Source: a virus
Virus record (IMG/VR): IMGVR_UViG_3300018424_005672
Coordinates: 1 to 22,406 of that record
Length of the DNA: 22,406 nucleotides
Direction: 5' to 3' (one strand)
Both the position numbers and the translations under genes were made by a program. Positions 1 to 11,068 of the stretch are shown here, piece after piece. The first letter of the stretch is position 1; each line of letters begins with the position of its first letter. The notes under the pieces were generated by a model. That model ran no database searches. It was given only the letters and a program-made list of their open reading frames with translations, and had not been told where the DNA came from.

Positions 1-3000
1 AGATATCCAGGAGTTTCACCAGGAATACAACCACCAGGACCAGTATCTTGATCATTATCACTCCACTCCTCAAATGCTCTAATCCAAACAGGTTCGCCGT
101 TTGGATTAGAGTTGCCAGTAGGGCTGTTGGTTGTTCTGATAGTATCGAATTCATCTAATTGAATAACATCAAAGCATCCAAATCCCCATAAGTTAATGGC
201 AACAGCATTTTCCTCAACAATAGGATCGGCTTCTTCAAAATCATCTGTTGGTAATCTATTTCTATATCCACCATATGATCCCCAATTAACAATACCTTTA
301 AACGCAGGATCCGGTTGACCAGTTAGCAATTCATGAATATGGAATGGAACTTCAAATAGCTGTTGATCTTTCAAAGAAACAGGACCAGTAACCTGACCTG
401 ATGTAGTAAATTCAATAACACCAGAAACATTGGAATATCCAGAAGTTTTTAATGTTCCAATATCATAGAACTGAGAATCCTGTGGTGGTTGTCCTGTTGC
501 TGGTTTATCAACCTGTGGAATAACATTACTAGAGGGAGAAGCAATAGTATCAATAAACCACAAACCACCATGAGATCCAGGAATATCAGAAGATTTGTTA
601 GATGTTGTCTTTTGTGGTCCAAATTGTGGTGCCAAGGCAGGAGAAGATGCCGATTGACCATCAACAGGTCCAGTACCTACAAGTTTCTTATTTCTGAAAT
701 CAGGTAGTCTAAACTGATTAGCAAAATTTTGTCCGTAAGTATACCCAATTACGTCAAATAAGGCAGGATAATCATCTGGTTCTAATGCTTGTCCATAACA
801 CCATATGAATCCAGGGAATCTAGAATTCAAACTACCTTCTACATCACCAAATCCACTTGCTTCATCACCAGCAACACTATCTTTGAATGCAGGCATCATA
901 GTTCCGATTGGAAGACCATCAAACTTAGTATTAAACTTAGCAACAGGTAATCCAGTTACTCCGCCAAAATTAGGATCTTGAACTACATTCAAACTACTAT
1001 ACCATTGTCCTAATAGTGGTTCTGGGGATGGTACAGTCGTAAACACAGTGTAAGAACCAGCCCCAGAACCAATGATTACATCTCTTGTCGTACTAAATCC
1101 AGGGAAAGGAGGAGAATTTAATTGTGCTTGAACAGTATCGCCATTGACAGCACCCGTGTAAGGACTTGCTGCTGTATAAGGGGTGAATGGACCACCATTA
1201 ACACTAATTTCAATAACACCATCACCATAAACATCTACCCCACCGGGAGCAGTAATACCTGCAATAGTAACAATAACAATAGAGGGTGTTGGTGCCCCTG
1301 GTGTGGCATTAGTATTTGTTCCAAAATTAAAATCATTAGGTGTAGTTCCAAATGATCCAGTAACACCAACTGTCCAAGTAACAGGGGGTGCTGTTCCTGC
1401 TGTGACAGGGAATTGAGTAAATGCTCCGGGTGTTGCGGTAGTAGTATAATACAGTCTAATAATATCAAACTCAGAAACTGTTACTGTAGTTAAATCAGTC
1501 TCTGTGCCATTCAATTCGATATATGCTATTTCACCAGCAACAAAACTTCCTCCAAGGTTTGAAGAAGGATCTACAACAACACTGATGTCTTCACTGATAT
1601 CCGTAATTGTTTGGTAGTTACTGTATACTTTAACCAAAGGATCTTGATCGGTTTTTGTGATAAAAACAAGAGTATCTGGTTCGGTATCGGGTTCTGCTTC
1701 TGTTGTAACTGTCCACAAAACAGGATCGGATGTTCCTACAATGACTTGTGTTTGAACAATAGTAGAATATAATGCAGAAGATGTAATTCTAACTTGAATT
1801 CTGTCACCATTATTTAAAGTTCTATCTGCTACATTACCAGTTAGTCCATTTACATATGGACCATATACATACGAACCACCACTTAATACACCAACACGAA
1901 TTTCAGCACCAGCATCAGCCGTTGCTACAACAGGAACATTAATACCACTAATTGTCTCCTGGTTAGATTCTATTAATGTACTGATAGGAGCATTTATTAC
2001 ATTATCAAAGAAAGGAGGGTTTGGTTCTTCATCAGGAGCAGGACCAGTTTCAACTCTCCAAATCTGACCAGGAGTTTCGGTTCCAACAACAGAGGTAGCA
2101 CTGTAAACTAGATTATAGTTTGGACCAGTCTCAAGTTGAAGTTGTAAATATTGTCCATTAGTAATAAATCCACCAGCAGTAAATGGTTCAGACAAAATAC
2201 TAACAGGATCAGATCCAATTCTAAGGCTGGCACTATTACCAGTTCCTGATACACTTACACTAACAGGACCAGTAATACCTGTAATTTGTTCTACATTCGA
2301 TTGATAGAATGAGTTTGGTTCTTGTTCCTCAATGTCTGTCCAAGAATAAGCATCAGGCAATGTATCCTGTGGTGCCCATCCTACTAAAACATATCCATCA
2401 TTACCGGGAGCAGCACCATTTTCCCCTGGTAATAAATCTGCTGTATTCTGAACGAATCCGGTTGTTCCATCACTAGGAACAAAATACCATCCACCACCTG
2501 TTCCACCATCACCATCTAAATCTGTGGTGTTTAATAAACCACCAAATGAATCGAATTGTTGTGTGTTGGTGTTACCACCAGAACCCCAGCCACCACCGGC
2601 ACCACCACCGCCTCCACCTTGACCAGAATTACTTACACCATTCTCTCCGACAAAATTAATAGTTCCGATTGGCTGTAGTGATCCACCACCTAATCCTTGG
2701 TTGCCGTTTTGTTCATCAGTTTGAATAATAGTATCAGCACCAGCACCTGCTCCACCAGCGCCGCCACCAGCAACTAAAAGTGTACTAATAAACGCTGCTG
2801 TATCAGGATCTAGTAAGTTAATGGCACTAGCACCACCACCGCCTCCTCCACCACCGGAGTATTCTACGGTAGAACCATCACCACCAAAACCACCAGTAGC
2901 ATAACCAAAACCACCGTCACCGCCAGAAGCACCCTGATCAAAATCTTCTCCATTTGTTCCTCCCTGAGCAGCAACAACACCTAATCTTCTAGTAAATGGA

Positions 3001-5525
3001 GCGGGCCAAAAAGATTCTGGTGTTAGCAAAGTTCCAATAAGAATATTTCCAGGTGCTCCCTGTCCACCAAAACTACTTGGTAGATCTTGTCCACCATCTC
3101 CACCACCAGCACCTAGCATAAACACATCAATGGAGTCTGCCCATTGTGGTAGGAATAATGAAGCATCAGACCCACCCGATCTTAACACATAAGTGTAATC
3201 CGATTTTTGTGTATAAACAACAAATCTATCAACAGCTAAACCAGAAGCAGCACTTAATCCGATTTGATAAGTAGCACGTCTAAATGTTCCCTCTGGTCCA
3301 GCATCTATTCTAATATAAGCAAATGGAGTGCTGGGTGTTAAAGTTGCAATTGATGAAAAAATAACTCCATCTGAGCTCACAGCAGCGTTAGAGAATGGTG
3401 TAGAGGAAGCAGATACAATACTTATTGTAGTATTAGCATCTAATCCCTCAATAGGAATTTGTGCTATACAAGTTTGACCAGGAGTAGCATCAAACTTAGG
3501 TTCTGCTCTAAATCTATATGGGACAGTTCTAGGTGCCCTAGTTGTTAATGTTAGAGTTTCCTGAATATTAGAATATGTAGGAGATAATGGACCTGCTGAG
3601 GGATTGCCTGTAGGACCACCAAAAGGAGGACCAGCTAAACGAATTGTACTTGATATAGTAATATTATAATCAGAAGGGGAGTCTAATCTAAAGTTTAAAA
3701 TATCTCCATCTTGAACATATAATTGCTGAACCCACGTACCGGCACCATTTTTTCTAATTTGACCAGAACCTTGAGTAACATTTACTCTTATTTCAACAGG
3801 ATCATTAGATGTTGGAGTGGTATTATATGTTGGCGTTCCACTTGTTCCTTGATTAGATTGAGGTGCTTCTAAATCACTATATGTATTAGCAGGATATTCC
3901 GTCCCTAATCCAGTAATAGGAACATCTACATAATAAGTCCTGTTAATTTCAGCATTAGGGACAGTATCAGTAGATGATACGTTTACCTGTCTATATTGTA
4001 AAATTTGATATTGAGCGTTAACGATACCACCAAGAATTTCAAAGGTATCATTTTCTGTATATCCAATACCTCTTTCTACAAATTCACCAGCAAAAATTGA
4101 TCCATTAGCACCAACTTCGGTAACTCTAAAAGTTAATCCAGATCCAACACCAGTTAAAGTATTCGTATTATATACAGTTCCGACAGTATAACCTTCACCA
4201 ACTGTTGCTGGAGATAGTACAACGTTAGCATCAGAAAATGTAAATACTCTATTAGGTCCAAAAGGAATTGGATCAGGATATCTATCTACTTCAGTCCAAA
4301 CTTGCTGATTATCATTTGTTGTTCCGGCAACCTGAGTAACTTCGAAGTTACCATTTCCTTCATCAGCTCCAAATGTTCCCAGAGTATTATTTTCAAATCC
4401 ACCTGCTAATACCTGTCCAGGATTAGCAAATATAGTTAGAGATCCTGAAGTTTTAGTAGCGTAATCATTACCAATTAAAGTTCTTACAAAAACTACATCG
4501 CCAAATGTAAGATTTGGAATATTCTGAGACCAAGAGACTTGATCCAGAGATATTTCCATATCGCCGGTTGAAGTTGCCTCAACAATAGCATCGGCATCAA
4601 TACCAATAATATCAATACTGGTAGTTTTATAATCCCCAAAATTATCAGTTAGAGGAGTTGCTGTAGGTTGTAATCCAGGTCCTGTGTTGGTAGATCTTTC
4701 ATCAACATAGTCAACAAAAGTTGTTGATGTTAACGTACTAACCGTTTGATCTTGTGCTCTTGTTGTAAGACTCCATGTAGTAGAGAACTGATCGCCAGGA
4801 GTCCAATAATTATCAGAAAGAGTAAGAGTAACGTTTGAATTAGTGGTGTACCAATCTTCTGTCTGTACTCTTAGTCTAACAGTATCTCCTGGTTGAACTG
4901 TAAAATACGAATTACCACTACTAGATCCAGTAGCAGACGCTGGATCAACTAAAGTTACAACGTTTCCGACTCTCTGTAAAACTTCACCTGTAATGTTAGG
5001 GCTAATAATATATCTACCTACGGCAATATCAGCTTCATTGCCACTAGTAATGGTGGCAGTTCTACTACCAGATACTGTGTTTAATGTGACTGGTACAAAA
5101 GAATTTGCCTCGTTAATCCAAACACTGTCATTAATAGTAAATGCTGCTGACGATGCTAGATTAGGGAAACTTGGCCTTGGTCCAGAAGCAGAAGACGAGA
5201 TACGAATAGGTATACGTAATTCAATACCAGAAATAACTTTTGCTTCGGAATAATATGTAGTATTTCGTTGGATACCATTAGTTCCAGAGGAATCAAAGTC
5301 ACCAGGAAGAGTAGGAAATTGTACGCTTTCGGAAGCGTATTGATCAAAGAACTGAAATGCATCTGGAGCTGCATCAGGAACTTTAGTTCCAATGGTAACT
5401 GTATCTGTTCCTTGTCCAATCTGAATCTGGAAACTGACATTCGTATCCCATGTATCGGGAGTGGGATATCTAATCTCAATAGTATCTCCCGGAGATACTA
5501 TAACTGGTGTAGATGAAAATGGCAT
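1..5525 (-). CDS. Giant modular fibre/adhesin: Ig-like repeats, glycine-rich domain, tail-collar domain; 3' partial
   Basis: I read this frame through from the ATG at 5525 (MPFSSTPVIVSPGDT) to base 1: 1841 codons without a stop, so the C-terminus is outside. An in-frame TAG just upstream fixes the start. Domains: residues 1-770, beta modules with recurring V-x-x-GD-T/I-(I/L/V)-x-(I/L/F)-R strands (SPGDTIEIRY, QPGDTVRLRV, QDGDILNFRL) and two G-x-GY segments; about 775-1050, a glycine-rich domain opening FLPQWADSIDVFMLGAGGGDGG and closing NDGYVLVGW; about 1055-1500, roughly four Ig-like repeats (QTI-x-G/D-I, NGD, then W-x-V-x-T); about 1535-1610, a tail-collar domain (IGTMMPAF, RFPGFIWCYGQALEPDDYPALF, FRLPDFRNKKLVGTG); H1729-I-H1731, a probable metal-binding HxH. 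It combines in one chain modules that are separate genes upstream. Likely a long receptor-binding fibre; no clear Shine-Dalgarno is seen. Confidence 0.8.
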   Translation of the reverse strand, partial: MPFSSTPVIVSPGDTIEIRYPTPDTWDTNVSFQIQIGQGTDTVTIGTKVPDAAPDAFQFFDQYASESVQFPTLPGDFDSSGTNGIQRNTTYYSEAKVISGIELRIPIRISSSASGPRPSFPNLASSAAFTINDSVWINEANSFVPVTLNTVSGSRTATITSGNEADIAVGRYIISPNITGEVLQRVGNVVTLVDPASATGSSSGNSYFTVQPGDTVRLRVQTEDWYTTNSNVTLTLSDNYWTPGDQFSTTWSLTTRAQDQTVSTLTSTTFVDYVDERSTNTGPGLQPTATPLTDNFGDYKTTSIDIIGIDADAIVEATSTGDMEISLDQVSWSQNIPNLTFGDVVFVRTLIGNDYATKTSGSLTIFANPGQVLAGGFENNTLGTFGADEGNGNFEVTQVAGTTNDNQQVWTEVDRYPDPIPFGPNRVFTFSDANVVLSPATVGEGYTVGTVYNTNTLTGVGSGLTFRVTEVGANGSIFAGEFVERGIGYTENDTFEILGGIVNAQYQILQYRQVNVSSTDTVPNAEINRTYYVDVPITGLGTEYPANTYSDLEAPQSNQGTSGTPTYNTTPTSNDPVEIRVNVTQGSGQIRKNGAGTWVQQLYVQDGDILNFRLDSPSDYNITISSTIRLAGPPFGGPTGNPSAGPLSPTYSNIQETLTLTTRAPRTVPYRFRAEPKFDATPGQTCIAQIPIEGLDANTTISIVSASSTPFSNAAVSSDGVIFSSIATLTPSTPFAYIRIDAGPEGTFRRATYQIGLSAASGLAVDRFVVYTQKSDYTYVLRSGGSDASLFLPQWADSIDVFMLGAGGGDGGQDLPSSFGGQGAPGNILIGTLLTPESFWPAPFTRRLGVVAAQGGTNGEDFDQGASGGDGGFGYATGGFGGDGSTVEYSGGGGGGGGASAINLLDPDTAAFISTLLVAGGGAGGAGAGADTIIQTDEQNGNQGLGGGSLQPIGTINFVGENGVSNSGQGGGGGGAGGGWGSGGNTNTQQFDSFGGLLNTTDLDGDGGTGGGWYFVPSDGTTGFVQNTADLLPGENGAAPGNDGYVLVGWAPQDTLPDAYSWTDIEEQEPNSFYQSNVEQITGITGPVSVSVSGTGNSASLRIGSDPVSILSEPFTAGGFITNGQYLQLQLETGPNYNLVYSATSVVGTETPGQIWRVETGPAPDEEPNPPFFDNVINAPISTLIESNQETISGINVPVVATADAGAEIRVGVLSGGSYVYGPYVNGLTGNVADRTLNNGDRIQVRITSSALYSTIVQTQVIVGTSDPVLWTVTTEAEPDTEPDTLVFITKTDQDPLVKVYSNYQTITDISEDISVVVDPSSNLGGSFVAGEIAYIELNGTETDLTTVTVSEFDIIRLYYTTTATPGAFTQFPVTAGTAPPVTWTVGVTGSFGTTPNDFNFGTNTNATPGAPTPSIVIVTIAGITAPGGVDVYGDGVIEISVNGGPFTPYTAASPYTGAVNGDTVQAQLNSPPFPGFSTTRDVIIGSGAGSYTVFTTVPSPEPLLGQWYSSLNVVQDPNFGGVTGLPVAKFNTKFDGLPIGTMMPAFKDSVAGDEASGFGDVEGSLNSRFPGFIWCYGQALEPDDYPALFDVIGYTYGQNFANQFRLPDFRNKKLVGTGPVDGQSASSPALAPQFGPQKTTSNKSSDIPGSHGGLWFIDTIASPSSNVIPQVDKPATGQPPQDSQFYDIGTLKTSGYSNVSGVIEFTTSGQVTGPVSLKDQQLFEVPFHIHELLTGQPDPAFKGIVNWGSYGGYRNRLPTDDFEEADPIVEENAVAINLWGFGCFDVIQLDEFDTIRTTNSPTGNSNPNGEPVWIRAFEEWSDNDQDTGPGGCIPGETPGY

Positions 5526-5559
5526 TTTCTAGATATAATGGCACTTATCGTCCTAGTAT
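5526..5559 (-). other. Longest intergenic gap (34 bases) before the second giant fibre
   Basis: The only real spacer in the window. CTAAATA at its upstream edge differs by one base from the late-promoter core ATAAATA. CCTA-AATAC-TAGG around 5551-5563 could pair only over 4 bases, too short for a terminator. No good Shine-Dalgarno is visible. It may hold a weak promoter for the giant gene, but this is not established. Confidence 0.3.
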
Positions 5560-5754
5560 TTAGGCTTCTTCCAGGGGTCTAATATCTACCCACTCTCCAC
5601 CATTTATTCTTACCTGAATAGGTAAAGATGCTTTTATTTCTGTTGGGGTTTCAATATGATCTACTTGTACTCTAGCAGATTTGTACATGTCCGTTTTTTC
5701 AGGATGTACATCACTAACATTCATGTTAGTGTCTTTAAATTTTCTTTTGCTCAT
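5560..5754 (-). CDS. Small protein carrying the adhesin C-terminal tail motif (64 aa)
   Basis: The N-terminal half is charged and basic (MSKRKFKDTN). The C-terminal half, ETPTEIKASLPIQVRINGG then EWVDIRPLEEA, follows the tail of the three upstream adhesins (PVEIKTSDGDAQVQINNDG then NWLDMREI): EIK, a Q-V-Q/R-I-N core, then a tryptophan and D-(I/M)-R. So the tail that ends each adhesin also exists as a separate gene. The ATG at 5754 overlaps the previous stop (ATGA), and a weak GGA lies about 9 bases upstream. It is followed by the longest gap of the window (34 bases). If the tail is a docking or trimerisation element, this protein could occupy or cap the same site; that is inference. Confidence 0.66.
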   Translation of the reverse strand: MSKRKFKDTNMNVSDVHPEKTDMYKSARVQVDHIETPTEIKASLPIQVRINGGEWVDIRPLEEA

Positions 5755-5966
5755 AATAATGTCCAGTAATATTCAATTAGTTTTCTAACCATTTCTGGTT
5801 CTTCCGAAATATCATCTCCAGGCAAATAATGTTTAAATTTAGTTTGTTGATTATTGACGCGAGGAACATCATCAATAACAGTATAATTTTGGGTAACATG
5901 TTTTACAGAACATGTAGTCCCTTCAATATCAAATCGAACTTCGGGAATAAAATTAGTAACGCTCAT
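5751..5966 (-). CDS. Small protein with a partial adhesin-module motif (71 aa)
   Basis: I do not recognise a named family. The start at 5966 (MSVTNFIPE) is set by the ATGA overlap with the previous stop; a longer in-frame TTG version beginning inside the upstream gene is unlikely. Residues about 10-33 (VRFDIEGTTCSVKHVTQNYT, then VIDDV) line up with the last strands of the adhesin beta module in paralogue 1 (VEFDITGTTYSFNVTTRPP, then VIEES). The second half, with YLPGDDISEEPEMVRKLIEYYW, is different and looks like a short helix. So it may be a derived fragment of that module or an adaptor using the same strand pair. No signal peptide or membrane segment. Its stop overlaps the next ATG by 4 bases. 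It sits between the adhesins and the second giant fibre, so a virion role is plausible but unproven. Confidence 0.65.
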   Translation of the reverse strand: MSVTNFIPEVRFDIEGTTCSVKHVTQNYTVIDDVPRVNNQQTKFKHYLPGDDISEEPEMVRKLIEYYWTLL

Positions 5967-6199
5967 ATTTGTCTCATATCTAGCCAATTTCCATCACTAT
6001 TTATTTGTACCTGGGCATCCCCATCACTAGTTTTGATTTCATTAGGAATTTCAATATCATTGACACCAATAGGGTTAGATATAACAAAAGGTTCATTTAC
6101 ATCAGGAAACACAGCATCAATGTCTGGATCTGGGAAAGCATCCGGGGATAATGGTTGACCTTCAGCATCAAATGATTCTTCGATAACTGGTGGTCTTGT
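5963..6199 (-). repeat. Constant 3' block of adhesin paralogue 3 (DNA repeat)
   Basis: Partner of the block at 9074-9313: near-identical stretches at 5974-6034 and 6144-6199, separated by a divergent linker-coding segment. Confidence 0.75.
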
Positions 6200-7561
6200 G
6201 ATAGCTTGGAAAGAAACAGATTGTGGTCCTATTTGAAAACTTACAGTTTTACTATTTGGTTGACCAATAGCAAGTCCTTCTCCATTTGTACCACTTACAA
6301 CAGTAGATGTATTGAATGGCATTGATGTAAATCTAACATATACAAAATCTAACTGTGATACTACCTGAGAAGACCAATTACTAGCATTTAAAGAAAGATC
6401 TGTACCACCAGCAGTAGAAGTACAAACAATAGGCATATCAGTTCCACTCCAATCAACTATAATATAATATACAGTATTTGGTTCTAACGAATTTACCGGA
6501 GTATTTCCTGGTGTAGCGGTAGTACCTACATTAAACGTAGAGAAATTATTGTCATTTTGTATACAAACTTGTTGCTGGGCACTAACTGCTGTCGAATCAT
6601 TAGGACCACTATAAACTGTTAAGGTATACGTATAACATGCTGGTGAGTTCACCCCTGCTACAGATTGAGGCAATGGAACTTGAACTGGACCTATTGCAAA
6701 AAATCCCTGATTACTATACGGGGCAGGAAAATTAGCTGTAATATCAGATGTTAATCCACCTCCACTGATTCTATATCTAGTTCCATAAGTATTGGCGGTA
6801 AGGAGAGCTGTATAAACAGGAGTACCTAATGGTTGGAACTCGGGTACTATGTTTAAACTATCAATTTGAGCAGGAAGATCAGTATAAGCGTAGTTTGCTC
6901 CCCCAGCGCCGCCGCTGCCTTGACTTTGTAATTGAGCGGGAAAACGATACCCGCTACCACCGCCACCGCCACCATTGCCACCACTGGATCCATCACATCC
7001 ACCATTGCCGCCACCAGCGCCACCAGAACCAGCGCCCCCACCGCCGCCGCCTCCGCCGTCGCCACAACCGCCGCCGCCTCCGCCGCCGCCACCAGAAGGA
7101 CCACCCAAACCACCGAATCCACCAGCGCCACCGCCTCCATTGCCGTTACGGAATCTCGAACCTCCACCACCACCACCGCCACCTCCGGCGACTACCATCC
7201 AACGGTTTCTAGTGTTGTCATAGATAGCACCACAACCACCACCGCCGCCGCCAGACCCAGAGCAACCAGCTTTATTCCCGCCAGGTCCACCTCCAGCTGC
7301 TCCACCGCCACCATTGCCAGCATTACCAAAACATGATCCACCACCATTACCATTGCCGGATCCATACCCAGTAATAGTTATAGCTTGGTAATCAGGAAGT
7401 CTAAAATTTCCATTTCTACCCTGACCGCCCCCGCCGCCGCCGCCACCTTCATCACCGCCGCCGCTGCCGCCAGATCCACCTCTACACGATACAAATATAT
7501 TAAAAGCACTAGCGGGAATGTTTACAGATCCTAATCCCCCGGAAAAATTTTGTAAAGGCAT
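5963..7561 (-). CDS. Glycine-rich adhesin paralogue 3, most glycine-dense (532 aa)
   Basis: The head (residues about 25-225) is the most extreme of the three: runs of up to nine glycines, interrupted by short islands such as NRWMVVAGG, SRFRNG and GYRFPAQLQ, with several GGC motifs. The first Ig-like region (about 240-340) has diverged (ACYTYTLTVYSGPND). The second beta module returns clearly (SLEPNTVYYIIVDWSGTDMP, FVYVRFTSMPFNTS, TRPPVIEE), as do the linker (SFDAEGQPLSPDAFPDPD) and the tail (EIKTSDGDAQVQ...NWLDMRQI). The ATG at 7561 is 1 base after the previous stop, with AGGGAG 7 bases upstream. The TGA overlaps the next ATG (ATGA). Its 3' end is nearly identical in DNA to that of paralogue 1, closer than to the adjacent paralogue 2, which suggests gene conversion or an unequal duplication history. 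Likely a receptor-binding adhesin. Confidence 0.77.
   Translation of the reverse strand: MPLQNFSGGLGSVNIPASAFNIFVSCRGGSGGSGGGDEGGGGGGGGQGRNGNFRLPDYQAITITGYGSGNGNGGGSCFGNAGNGGGGAAGGGPGGNKAGCSGSGGGGGGCGAIYDNTRNRWMVVAGGGGGGGGGSRFRNGNGGGGAGGFGGLGGPSGGGGGGGGGCGDGGGGGGGGAGSGGAGGGNGGCDGSSGGNGGGGGGSGYRFPAQLQSQGSGGAGGANYAYTDLPAQIDSLNIVPEFQPLGTPVYTALLTANTYGTRYRISGGGLTSDITANFPAPYSNQGFFAIGPVQVPLPQSVAGVNSPACYTYTLTVYSGPNDSTAVSAQQQVCIQNDNNFSTFNVGTTATPGNTPVNSLEPNTVYYIIVDWSGTDMPIVCTSTAGGTDLSLNASNWSSQVVSQLDFVYVRFTSMPFNTSTVVSGTNGEGLAIGQPNSKTVSFQIGPQSVSFQAITRPPVIEESFDAEGQPLSPDAFPDPDIDAVFPDVNEPFVISNPIGVNDIEIPNEIKTSDGDAQVQINSDGNWLDMRQI
5998..6005 (-). promoter_or_regulatory. Possible T4-type late promoter element AATAAATA (second copy)
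   Basis: Same sequence and placement as the copy at 9109-9116, here 31 bases before the ATG at 5966. It lies in the homologous tail codons of paralogue 3, so the two copies are not independent evidence. Paralogue 2 lacks it. Confidence 0.25.
6955..7460 (-). repeat. GC-rich glycine-codon low-complexity tract
   Basis: Dense GGN codons appear on the plus strand as CCG/CCA/CCT triplet runs, most strikingly around 7039-7092. This is a sharp GC island in an AT-rich window and is in frame with adhesin paralogue 3. Confidence 0.8.
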
Positions 7562-7562
7562 T

Positions 7563-7644
7563 TTAAATCTCCCTCATATCCTGCCAGATTCCACTAAAAT
7601 TACGCTGAACTTGAGCATCTCCATCACTAGTTTTTATCTCTACA
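7563..7644 (-). repeat. Constant 3' block of adhesin paralogue 2 (DNA repeat)
   Basis: Encodes the same EIKTSDGDAQVQ...DMREI tail. 7615-7644 is identical to 9126-9155, while the codons between QVQ and DMREI differ from the other two copies. Confidence 0.65.
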
Positions 7645-9074
7645 TCAATCTCAATATCATTTAAATTTATCTGATTAGATTTAATAAATTCTTTTGGATT
7701 TGGACTAGGAAGTATGTCAATATCAGGGAATGGTAATTCATCCGGAGATGGAGATGATCCTTCGGCATCAAATGTTTCTTCAATAACAGGTCGTCTAGTA
7801 GTAGCGGTAAAAGATTTAGTATCAGTTCCAAACTGAAAACTATATGTTTGTGTATTAGTTTGCCCTACAGTTTCTCCACCAGTAGTTCCACCAGGAACCG
7901 TAGATGGATTGAAATCAGGAGATCTATATCTAACATAAAAAGTGCTTCCTCTAGGAACTAATATACTACCAGTTGTCCATCCACCGCTAGGACTATTACT
8001 GACCCGACAATTACTATTGCCAAATGCAAATGTATTCATATCAACTCCGGTATATGTAACAGCAGAATAATAGTTTGTCAACGGTTCTAATGCACCAGCA
8101 GTTCTACTAATATTTCCAGGAAAAGCACTATTTCCAACAGTAATACTACTAGGATTATTATCATTATAAACATTAGCTACTACTGACGCTGTAGTAGTTC
8201 CGCCAGGACCAGTTGCTGTTAACGTATATGTTCTTGTCGCCGGATTAGACAAACTATTGCTACTAGGTGCCGTAGATTGTAGTCCGGTATTTACATTTCT
8301 AGTTCCAGCTGGATTGGTCACACTACCAATTCCCTGATTAATACTAAGGGAAGACGCGAAATTTGTTGACCATGATAATGTAACTGTGCTCGATGGAGTT
8401 CCAGTATTGCTAAATTGTGTGGTAGAAGTGAAAGAGAAAATTTGTGGTGGATAATAATCCCATTCTATTCTAGCAGCGCCATTTCCACCAGAACCAGCAC
8501 CGCCGCCATCATTTCCAGCGCCGCCGCCACCAAAGTTACGACCGCTGCGACCACCAGGGCAACCTCCAATGTTGCCACTGTTTATATTTGTTCCAGCGCC
8601 ACCATTACCACCTCCACAACCACCTGTTCCTCCACTTCGATTTAGAGCACCAGCACTGCCACCATCCTGCCCATTATCATCATCGTCGCCTCGGGCACCA
8701 GATCTTAAAATCTGACCATCAGATCCAGCACCGCCACCGCCGCCGCCGGAATCATCATTTCCTGTTCTTCCGCCAGTTGCTCGAACATTATATCCACCAC
8801 CGTTTAATCTGCTAGCGGTTCCATTTTGCCCGGAGTCACATCCAGGAGATCCACCACCGTTGGCAACTCCTACAGTATAACTAAAACCAGAACCATTTCT
8901 AACAAAACTAGATTGAGCGAATCCACCTCCGCCGCCTCCGCCGCCTTCTTCATCACCATCACAATCCCTATATCCAGATGCACCGCCACCAACACATCGA
9001 ATCAGTACATTTCTAGTGGCAAATGGTAATCTATCGGAATAACTTCCAGGACTGGTGTAATTACGGGCTGGCAT
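7563..9074 (-). CDS. Glycine-rich adhesin paralogue 2 (503 aa)
   Basis: Same architecture as paralogue 1. The glycine-rich head (about 20-205) starts with RNVLIRCVGGGASGY and an acidic DCDGDEEGG stretch and ends GNGAARIEWDYYPP. It is followed by an Ig-like domain (VTLSWSTNFASSLSINQGIG, ATRTYTLTATGPGGT), a second beta module (LEPLTNYYSAVTYTGVDM, FYVRYRSPDFNPST, TTRRPVIEE), the linker (TFDAEGSSPSPDELPFPD) and the tail (EIKTSDGDAQVQ...WQDMREI). I chose the ATG at 9074 (MPARNY) and not an in-frame TTG at 9098. The ATG overlaps the previous stop as TAATG, AGGGAG lies 5 bases upstream, and its two paralogues also begin Met-Pro. The head differs strongly from paralogue 1 while Ig domain and tail stay close. 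It contains several cysteines, unusual for a phage fibre. Likely a receptor-binding adhesin. Confidence 0.78.
   Translation of the reverse strand: MPARNYTSPGSYSDRLPFATRNVLIRCVGGGASGYRDCDGDEEGGGGGGGGFAQSSFVRNGSGFSYTVGVANGGGSPGCDSGQNGTASRLNGGGYNVRATGGRTGNDDSGGGGGGAGSDGQILRSGARGDDDDNGQDGGSAGALNRSGGTGGCGGGNGGAGTNINSGNIGGCPGGRSGRNFGGGGAGNDGGGAGSGGNGAARIEWDYYPPQIFSFTSTTQFSNTGTPSSTVTLSWSTNFASSLSINQGIGSVTNPAGTRNVNTGLQSTAPSSNSLSNPATRTYTLTATGPGGTTTASVVANVYNDNNPSSITVGNSAFPGNISRTAGALEPLTNYYSAVTYTGVDMNTFAFGNSNCRVSNSPSGGWTTGSILVPRGSTFYVRYRSPDFNPSTVPGGTTGGETVGQTNTQTYSFQFGTDTKSFTATTRRPVIEETFDAEGSSPSPDELPFPDIDILPSPNPKEFIKSNQINLNDIEIDVEIKTSDGDAQVQRNFSGIWQDMREI
7569..7574 (-). promoter_or_regulatory. Shine-Dalgarno AGGGAG for adhesin paralogue 3
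   Basis: AGGGAG lies 7 bases before the ATG at 7561, again inside the Met-Arg-Glu-Ile terminus of the preceding gene. Confidence 0.75.
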
Positions 9075-10708
9075 TAAATCTCCCTCATATCTAGCCAATT
9101 TCCATCATTATTTATTTGTACTTGGGCATCTCCATCACTAGTTTTTATCTCTACAGGAATTTCAATATCATTAGTATTAACAGAATTAGTGTTTACAAAT
9201 TCTTCTACAATAAAATTGCCAATGGGAAGAGAGATCTCTGGATCGGGGAAAGCCTCTGGGGATAATGGTTGACCTTCGGCATCAAATGATTCTTCAATAA
9301 CAGGTGGTCTTGTAGTAACATTGAAACTATATGTAGTTCCTGTAATATCAAATTCAACAGTTTTAGTATTTGGTTGACCTATTGCTTCGCCAAATGAATT
9401 TACGCCGCTAGAAACAGTACTAGTGTTATATGGGAGAGAAGTAAATCTGACATAAAAAGGATTTCCCACAGGAACCAATACAGTTCCTGTAGTAAATCCA
9501 CCACCACTATTAGCACTAACTTGAACACCAGATCCACCAGTAACATTAAGTGGCATATCTGTTCCTGTTGTAGTTACAGTAGCAGTGTATACCGTAATTT
9601 CTTCTAAATTATTAGTCCTATTTCTACTACCAGGATTGACTAGGGTAGCTGCTGTAACAGTAGAAGGTTGATTGTCATTAAAAACTCTCGCTGTTGCCGT
9701 TGCCGTTACAGTTCCACCGGGACCAGATGCTGTTAGTGTATATGTTCTTGTTGCTGGCGAAGTACCGGGAGCAACTGATTGTAAACCCGTGTTTATAGTT
9801 AAAGATCCCCCACCTGCCGGTGATACTGCTCCAACTCCCTGATTAATACTAACATTTGTAGCATATTGGGTGGTCCAGGTAGCAGTTACATTACTACTAG
9901 GAATTCCAGTAGAACTAGTTTGCTCCGTAATTGAAAAACTATTAATAACCGGAGCTGCATAAATTTCTGTTATTCTTACAGCACCACCTGCTCCCCATCC
10001 AGTATACTGCCCGCTGCCACACCAAGGATTACCACCGTTACCGCCGCCACCGCCGCCATATCCTTGATCTGGATTGAATGAAGAAGGACAACCTGTTAGA
10101 CTTCCATTTAATAATCTACCTCGTCCACCTCTTCCGGGATATGCCGCGGTAACACCACCAAAACCATTAGAAATACAACATGCTAATACATAACCACATC
10201 CACTGCCTCCACCAGCAGCTCCACCCTGACCGCCTCTTACGGCAAAACTAGCACCACAAGGACCCCCTTGTCCACCTTGGTAATTAGTGTCACGACTTCC
10301 ACCATTGCCACCCGGAGCGAGTGTAAAAAGTGCTAATTGACCACTCGAAGTAGCACTCCCACCGCCGCCAGCGTCACCGGCAGCTCCTCCGCCAGCAGTA
10401 GCATCAAATTCTAAACCAGTAAAAAAAGATCTTACATAAGAAGCGGATCCAGATTCTCTACTGTCATTAATATATCTACCTCCACGTCCAGCTTGGATTT
10501 GTATAGTACTCCCAGGAACAGTTGGATATCTTCCTTGAACTAATCCCCCTCCACTGCCACCGCCACCGAGAGAATCTCCATCATTATCAGCAAATCCTGA
10601 TCCACCTCCACCAATAACTGTTACATTTATACTAGTACACGCAAACGGAACTGTCCAGTTGACATTAACGTTAGCGGTGCTATTTGAATTTCCAATCCAA
10701 TCCGGCAT
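9074..10708 (-). CDS. Glycine-rich adhesin paralogue 1 (544 aa)
   Basis: Domain order: (1) residues about 10-250, a glycine-rich domain that opens with a hydrophobic strand (CTSINVTVIGGGGSG) and closes with GAGGAVRITEIY, with variable stretches between glycine runs; (2) about 251-345, an Ig/PKD-like domain (TWTTQYATNVSINQGVG, ATRTYTLTASGPGGT); (3) about 365-460, a second beta module (GTDMP, PFYVRFTSLPYNTS, ending TTRPPVIEE); (4) an acidic proline linker (SFDAEGQPLSPEAFPDP); (5) a C-terminal tail DIEIPVEIKTSDGDAQVQ...NWLDMREI. Glycine-rich domains with this layout occur in phage proteins. The polyglycine-II adhesin gp38 of Salmonella phage S16, at the fibre tip, is a functional analogy only. 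GGGAG, 8 bases upstream, supports the ATG at 10708. Its TAA shares one base with the next ATG (TAATG). Likely a receptor-recognition protein. Confidence 0.78.
   Translation of the reverse strand: MPDWIGNSNSTANVNVNWTVPFACTSINVTVIGGGGSGFADNDGDSLGGGGSGGGLVQGRYPTVPGSTIQIQAGRGGRYINDSRESGSASYVRSFFTGLEFDATAGGGAAGDAGGGGSATSSGQLALFTLAPGGNGGSRDTNYQGGQGGPCGASFAVRGGQGGAAGGGSGCGYVLACCISNGFGGVTAAYPGRGGRGRLLNGSLTGCPSSFNPDQGYGGGGGGNGGNPWCGSGQYTGWGAGGAVRITEIYAAPVINSFSITEQTSSTGIPSSNVTATWTTQYATNVSINQGVGAVSPAGGGSLTINTGLQSVAPGTSPATRTYTLTASGPGGTVTATATARVFNDNQPSTVTAATLVNPGSRNRTNNLEEITVYTATVTTTGTDMPLNVTGGSGVQVSANSGGGFTTGTVLVPVGNPFYVRFTSLPYNTSTVSSGVNSFGEAIGQPNTKTVEFDITGTTYSFNVTTRPPVIEESFDAEGQPLSPEAFPDPEISLPIGNFIVEEFVNTNSVNTNDIEIPVEIKTSDGDAQVQINNDGNWLDMREI
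9080..9085 (-). promoter_or_regulatory. Shine-Dalgarno AGGGAG deciding the start of adhesin paralogue 2
   Basis: AGGGAG is encoded by the Met-Arg-Glu codons of the upstream DMREI terminus, 5 bases before the ATG at 9074. It favours 9074 over the upstream in-frame TTG at 9098. Confidence 0.75.
9109..9116 (-). promoter_or_regulatory. Possible T4-type late promoter element AATAAATA
   Basis: AATAAATA on the minus strand fits the NATAAATA late element reported for T4-like cyanophages and ends 34 bases before the ATG at 9074, a suitable distance. However, it is made by the codons for Q-I-N in the adhesin tail, and a similar match occurs inside the giant fibre gene at 14111-14118, far from any start, so it may be chance. 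Confidence 0.25.
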
Positions 10709-10711
10709 GAT

Positions 10712-11068
10712 CTACGCTCCCATTTTTATTTTAAAATTTGGTGTAATTTTTGGAGCACGGGTATGTGTTTTAACTGTAATAAAATCTACACCTACCTTAA
10801 CAGTTAAATCATATGGATTCTTTTCACCAGTAAGATCAAATGGTTTCGACACAAATTTTATATACAAACAATCAGAAACATCTAGAACAATAGGATCAAC
10901 ACCAAAATTTACATGATCCTTGCTAATCTGAAATACCATATTATATGGTTTAACTTCAGTAGGATCTTCAATATCTAATCTACCTAGATTAATTGTATAT
11001 ACTTCCGTTGGTTCTAACTCACCAACAGAAACGTTCTTACCATAAGAATTTTTGGCATATTTGATCAT
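10712..11068 (-). CDS. Stand-alone Ig-like module protein (118 aa)
   Basis: A small protein with no signal peptide or membrane segment. Its body parallels the third domain of the three downstream glycine-rich proteins. Here one reads GELEPTEVYTINL, then CLYIKFVSKPFDLTG, then TVKVGVDFITVKTHTRAPKI. The neighbours have LEPNTVYYII, then FVYVRFTSMPFNTS, then TVSFQIG...F-A-I-TRPPVIEE. So it looks like that beta-sandwich module encoded alone. The start is set by the ATGA overlap with the preceding stop (ATG at 11068). Its last codons (KMGA, then TAG) contain GGGAG, a good Shine-Dalgarno for the next gene's ATG at 10708, so the genes are translationally linked. A virion-associated accessory or adaptor for the adhesins is plausible. 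The module similarity is seen by eye; function is inferred. Confidence 0.72.
   Translation of the reverse strand: MIKYAKNSYGKNVSVGELEPTEVYTINLGRLDIEDPTEVKPYNMVFQISKDHVNFGVDPIVLDVSDCLYIKFVSKPFDLTGEKNPYDLTVKVGVDFITVKTHTRAPKITPNFKIKMGA
10717..10721 (-). promoter_or_regulatory. Shine-Dalgarno GGGAG for adhesin paralogue 1
   Basis: GGGAG lies 8 bases before the ATG at 10708 and is formed by the last sense codons (Met-Gly-Ala) of the 118-residue gene. It supports this start and coupling of the two genes. Confidence 0.7.

Follow-up and report, generated by a model that had tools for sequence, protein, structure and literature searches.

A gp12-type cyanophage fibre with an N-terminal half repeat that is probably completed by an upstream-encoded half

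Introduction

In donor-strand complementation, an approach to assembly used by chaperone-usher pili and TasA fibres, an incomplete Ig-like or beta domain is completed by another chain. In the literature consulted we found no precedent for phage fibres with a split immunoglobulin domain. For the cyanomyoviruses, a 2010 review listed T4 g10, g11 and g12 and the genes for the long fibres as absent, and assumed that structural proteins not yet known take their place; from S-PM2, late-promoter motifs are known that have the form NATAAATA or CTAAATA (PMC2984593). Pam3 gp24, a cyanophage fibre that carries at its tip a glycine-rich domain comparable to the one considered here, is described as recognising its receptor through that domain, to which the glycine-rich domain of ALK/LTK is related; the glycine-rich domain of the S16 adhesin is likewise held to be the receptor-recognition part (PMC9608196).

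We analysed an IMG/VR virus record of 22,406 bases (the window), off the end of which a giant fibre ORF runs. Here we describe this fibre, its relatives, and a repeat that is divided between the fibre gene and the gene preceding it.

Results

A long form of the cyanomyovirus short tail fibre

The giant ORF begins with an ATG at 5525 and continues in one open frame to the end of the window with no stop, in agreement with the original prediction of 1841 codons whose end lies outside. A TAG lies in frame 6 nt upstream of the ATG, and the N-terminus is therefore real; about 150 codons are missing at the 3′ end by comparison with the related locus L019. The modules are as follows.

3-5525, minus strand: gp12-type giant tail fibre, 1841 codons in the window, 3′ end beyond it
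5385-5525, minus strand: N-terminal acceptor half of an Ig-like repeat (residues 1-47; positions 55-99 of the 99 in the repeat profile)
3204-5384, minus strand: Ig-like repeats preceding the glycine-rich domain (residues 48-774)
2370-3203, minus strand: glycine-rich domain with a fold of the ALK/LTK ligand-binding type (residues 775-1052)
1038-2363, minus strand: four Ig-like repeats past the glycine-rich domain (residues 1055-1496)
333-1022, minus strand: collar region to the first HxH (HIH 1729-1731; residues 1502-1731)
3-332, minus strand: putative variable receptor-binding tip, beginning only, cut by the window end

Profiles, AlphaFold2 and structural comparison bear out the earlier list of modules (Ig repeats, a glycine-rich domain and a collar/HxH part). 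The collar family PF07484 matches residues 1571-1613 (E 1.1e-11), and iterated profiles place about six Ig-like repeats of roughly 100 residues before the glycine-rich domain and exactly four after it; across all long fibres there are four to six copies before and always four after. AlphaFold2 models residues 1-1165 with a mean pLDDT of 82 as Ig-like sandwiches in a row, and the Ig fold of the shaft repeats is further backed by Foldseek/VIA matches to Ig-type tandems. Because general Ig tandems fill the Foldseek list, we claim no specific relative for the stalk, and a PDB sequence search with the fibre alignment gave no match at E 0.1. The window holds one HxH motif (HIH, 1729-1731); complete relatives have a second about 150 residues past the cut and end in IKA(F/Y).

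The ORF matches PHROG 4924 (short tail fibre) with an E-value of 2e-97, and the gene order matches the fibre locus in Kyanoviridae (for example S-PM2, Syn1, S-CAM4 and ACG-2014i), in which its counterpart is annotated as gp12 or short tail fibre. Along the operon, another giant fibre (2913+ aa, PHROG 4527) is followed by collar proteins of 570 and 294 aa, a 118-aa protein, three glycine-rich paralogues of 544, 511 and 532 aa, and two ORFs of 71 and 64 aa that were absent from the original prediction, before the 1841-codon fibre is reached in the position of a gp12-type gene. Its N-terminal half repeat is homologous to the fibres of S-PM2, S-CAM and others, and homology with the short tail fibre of ordinary cyanomyoviruses covers both the N-terminal 60 or so residues and the last 800 or so; the extra Ig repeats and the glycine-rich domain are therefore internal to a gp12-type fibre. 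Judged by synteny, the PHROG match and the common N-terminus, the giant fibre is a long form of the gp12-type short tail fibre of a T4-like cyanophage. With the described fibres of this type (T4-GC 740, PHROG 4924; for instance S-PM2 gp12 and Syn1 gp12) it shares the N-terminal half repeat, the Ig-like shaft, the collar and the operon position, as well as, in its complete relatives, the second HxH motif and the IKAY/F ending. It differs in being nearly twice as long, the extras lying between the N-terminal head and the last four repeats, and in having a mini-gene as its direct upstream neighbour, where the ordinary fibre has a glycine-rich protein. The data support a composite fibre, as had been proposed, but not a simple fusion of upstream genes, since both of its ends are of the gp12 type and separate glycine-rich genes remain. 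Nor are those genes the pure single modules that they were taken for, as each also has Ig-like domains and a C-terminal half repeat.

A full-length equivalent is found in the isolate Sf-FR1. This protein, SfFR1_28 (XYM58625.1; 1853 aa), has the same architecture from end to end at 33-36% identity and is preceded by the same two small genes, though it is annotated only as a collar-domain protein and the Sf-FR1 mini-gene only as hypothetical. Scanning IMG/VR with the giant fibre as a single protein gave no matches; a scan with the two-sequence alignment of the giant fibre ORF and SfFR1_28 gave 52 loci, about 44 of them with an intact ORF of 1801-2232 aa. These intact fibres agree in having a single glycine-rich stretch, located alike in all of them, as well as two HxH motifs and a shared C-terminal motif. 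The presence among the records of some with psbA and some with T4-type gp23 identifies the group as T4-like cyanophages. When the collar regions are placed in a tree, the long fibres group as a single clade with support of 100/99, to be read with the caveat that the short forms have long branches. The order of modules, at first thought unusual, is thus that of a whole clade (Sf-FR1 and about 50 contigs) and no peculiarity of one contig.

Two further observations concern single loci. The long-fibre frame is broken in L064 (10979-10992, near the glycine-rich domain) and in L058 (at 3053-3072 and near 5818), through assembly error or real frameshift. The short tail fibres of S-RSM4 (L075) and S-WAM2 (L076), of 1406 and 1269 aa, begin near the collar region and lack the head, the repeats and the donors.

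The glycine-rich domain and variability along the fibre

The family Gly_rich_2 (PF21722) matches residues 791-1021 with an E-value of 0.002, below the family cut-off. Comparison of the predicted fold of residues 775-1052 finds the ALK/LTK glycine-rich ligand-binding domain (Z 13.6 over 197 residues, rmsd 3.1), the next match being a tail-tip protein of phage Bxb1 (Z 9.6). Through the ALK/LTK match the domain has the TNF-like sandwich and stacked glycine-rich stretches seen in Pam3 gp24 and in T-even gp38 (S16, T2). It differs from these adhesins in position: theirs is distal, whereas in the giant fibre the domain is mid-shaft, followed by four Ig repeats and the collar region.

Among the modules of the long fibre the N-terminal head is the most conserved (0.72), and the tip between the two HxH motifs is the most variable (0.37), with large insertions. 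In the glycine-rich domain the glycine lattice is conserved, and variation at the remaining positions is close to that of the shaft (0.38 versus 0.40-0.44). We therefore rejected the domain as a hypervariable specificity site, the tip varying most. This pattern fits a conserved joint and a variable receptor tip; the giant fibre may have two recognition sites, one on the shaft and one at the tip. Separately, the fibres of L048 and L049 have about 230 residues more between the tip HxH motifs (residues 1726-2133) than their close relative L046, to which they are otherwise nearly identical.

Two halves of one Ig-like repeat

The first 47 residues of the giant fibre are the second half of an Ig repeat and not a whole one, and the same is true of ordinary short tail fibres. 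The glycine-rich proteins encoded upstream terminate in the first half of the same repeat. To avoid circularity, the repeat profile was rebuilt from 276 internal complete repeats only. Against this 99-position profile the fibre starts cover positions 55-99, whereas the C-termini encoded upstream cover roughly 5-57, so that the halves are cut at the same point. When the upstream half (the donor) and the fibre half (the acceptor) of one locus are joined on paper, they score as one continuous repeat, the scores roughly adding, in nearly all of 32 loci.

At the level of sequence, the fibre begins with strands D to G of the repeat, and strands A to C close the preceding gene. Mapped onto the predicted fold of residues 1055-1160, a complete repeat, the cut lies after strand C and before strand D; with strands assigned to sheets by the usual Ig topology, each of the two sheets would therefore need strands from both chains. 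AlphaFold2 predicts complete repeats with high confidence, the N-terminal half with a pLDDT of 56-70 and only two strands, and the donor tail with low confidence, which is weak evidence for an unfolded half as chain ends often score low. Searching the donor alignment against the sequences of known structures gave no credible match.

The features upstream of the fibre are as follows.

5560-5754, minus strand: mini-gene, 64 aa, a free-standing donor half of the Ig-like repeat (EIKASLPIQVRINGGEWVDIR)
5751-5966, minus strand: orfA, 71 aa, its stop overlapping the mini-gene start by 4 nt
5963-7561, minus strand: glycine-rich protein, 532 aa, with a C-terminal donor half repeat
7563-9098, minus strand: glycine-rich protein, 511 aa, with a C-terminal donor half repeat; the listed start is TTG, an ATG at 9074 being likelier
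9074-10708, minus strand: glycine-rich protein, 544 aa, with two Ig-like domains and a C-terminal donor half repeat

Members of the long-fibre clade have, as the ORF immediately ahead of the fibre, a mini-gene of 55-72 codons with little beyond the donor half, which elsewhere is the tail of a glycine-rich virion protein. The mini-gene is present in all 42 long-fibre loci with enough upstream sequence, including Sf-FR1 (SfFR1_27), and is under purifying selection (median pN/pS of 0.16 in 41 close pairs). No other donor was found in the genome of Sf-FR1 or in the record of L055. In PHROG, which is independent of our repeat profile, the mini-protein aligns with the very end of the C-terminus in three virion-protein families. 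The small gene orfA precedes the mini-gene in most long-fibre loci and often ends in YWSTL; it has no Pfam match and only a weak one in PHROG (head-tail adaptor, E 0.04).

Several details of the upstream genes may be added. The donor tails of the three glycine-rich paralogues (5963-6093, 7563-7693 and 9074-9204) are 68-78% identical in DNA over 131 nt while their glycine-rich parts differ, and at other loci too the donor tails are alike within the locus, as if kept uniform. The 118-aa protein (10712-11068, minus strand), whose gene separates that of the 294-aa collar protein from the first of the glycine-rich genes, resembles a single Ig-type repeat by eye and has no profile match. In ACG-2014e (NC_026928, 38841-39002; L015) a donor half repeat lies within a 1789-aa glycine-rich protein that has another at its C-terminus, as if two donor proteins had fused.

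Donor and acceptor occur together

When 22 records were searched genome-wide, 17 were found to have one acceptor and one to six donors, all at the fibre locus. The other five (CH1b, MbCM7, S-H9-1, S-RSM4 and S-WAM2), which are few and partly interrelated, have neither as a terminal half. For an out-of-sample test we used the ordinary fibre's head to retrieve 80 loci, the majority of them, though not all, on contigs independent of the earlier set. The preceding ORF is donor-terminated in 75 of the 75 testable loci, ending 23-45 nt before the fibre, and among 2603 ORFs there were no donor matches on the other strand.

Separate chains that meet to complete one Ig domain would be the simplest account of both fibre and donor. 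A different history, in which a gp12-type fibre grew long by gaining Ig repeats and a glycine-rich domain, would make the half repeats remnants of old gene fission that have no joint function and are each stabilised in their own trimer. Repeats are gained and lost modularly across the family, and CH1b has a fibre though it lacks the terminal half repeats, both as such accretion would have it. Remnants of this kind nevertheless look improbable given that the head is the most conserved module, that the mini-gene retains only the donor half, under selection, at every long-fibre locus that could be checked, that adjacency extended to all 75 further loci, and that where one half is lost the other is lost too.

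A second alternative is that the donor half docks elsewhere, on the baseplate or a chaperone for instance, the mini-protein being an assembly factor and not a permanent part. The numbers of genes lend this some support: with one to six donors per genome to a single acceptor gene, several donor-tailed proteins face one acceptor, and these copy numbers count against a simple stoichiometry of a split joint. A further point for it, and against the joint, is that no co-variation was detected within the pair, the mini-protein and the fibre head showing none beyond shared descent in a partial Mantel test. Docking elsewhere is nonetheless unlikely, as the cut is exactly complementary and both the adjacency and the co-occurrence with the acceptor are strict.

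The boundary between the two genes

At the donor/acceptor boundary of the giant fibre lies a motif close to the late-promoter type of S-PM2.

5557-5564, minus strand: CCTAAATA, one difference from the cyanomyovirus late-promoter type NATAAATA

In 32 of 32 loci such a motif precedes the fibre ATG by 31-45 nt, where the background expectation is 0.024 per 60 nt; at mini-gene loci it overlaps the stop or the final donor codons. The gap between donor and fibre varies in length and in relative frame (0, 1 or 2), and all 32 loci have an in-frame stop before the ATG, from which it follows that the halves are not one frameshifted polypeptide. Since on the mRNA one half follows the other in the right order, with only 9-46 nt between them, one might suppose that frameshifting, read-through or ribosome bypass joins them, making the fibre longer still than its ORF; the variable gap and frame, the stop, and the late-promoter motif that each of the 32 loci has, either in the gap or where the donor gene ends, make this very unlikely. 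We give practically no weight to a chimeric contig linking unrelated genes, an idea suggested by the unusual length of an ORF that leaves the contig end and already refuted by the intact order in about 44 other ORFs and in Sf-FR1; the frameshift or assembly join that might have undone the original prediction is likewise excluded by the many contigs with the frame intact.

Discussion

We conclude that this is probably a gp12-type cyanophage fibre whose N-terminal half repeat is completed by an upstream-encoded half, giving an Ig domain split between two chains. We also lean towards the view that cyanomyovirus fibres are assembled via a natural split Ig domain, the fibre supplying strands D to G and either glycine-rich adhesins or a dedicated mini-protein of about 60 residues, encoded by the gene before it, supplying strands A to C. 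From the sequence pattern, its generality across loci and its boundaries we infer a physical complex of the two halves, which would meet after translation to give one complete Ig domain, each sheet with strands from both chains. In ordinary cyanomyoviruses the joint would anchor separately made glycine-rich proteins at the N-terminal end, or base, of the fibre. In the long-fibre clade, where the shaft has a glycine-rich domain of its own, a dedicated mini-protein (64 residues here) would supply the missing half and cap the fibre N-terminus. Final contact with the host would fall to the collar and the variable HxH tip, as in T4 gp12, and the glycine-rich domain may make an additional contact along the shaft.

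The arrangement resembles donor-strand complementation in that one chain lacks strands that another carries, a likeness seen here in the sequences of the two proteins. It differs in that the other chain would contribute about half a domain, some three strands, instead of a single strand, and in that a free-standing mini-protein could be the contributor. As the gene boundary and the late-promoter motif fall inside the domain, we propose that adhesin and fibre could thereby be made in different amounts and yet dock specifically.

A split Ig joint of this kind would be a natural two-part Ig coupling and a candidate for a protein-joining tag. It would also give a role to an unannotated gene of some 60 residues, and would predict, in a form open to testing, which fibre each virion protein attaches to.
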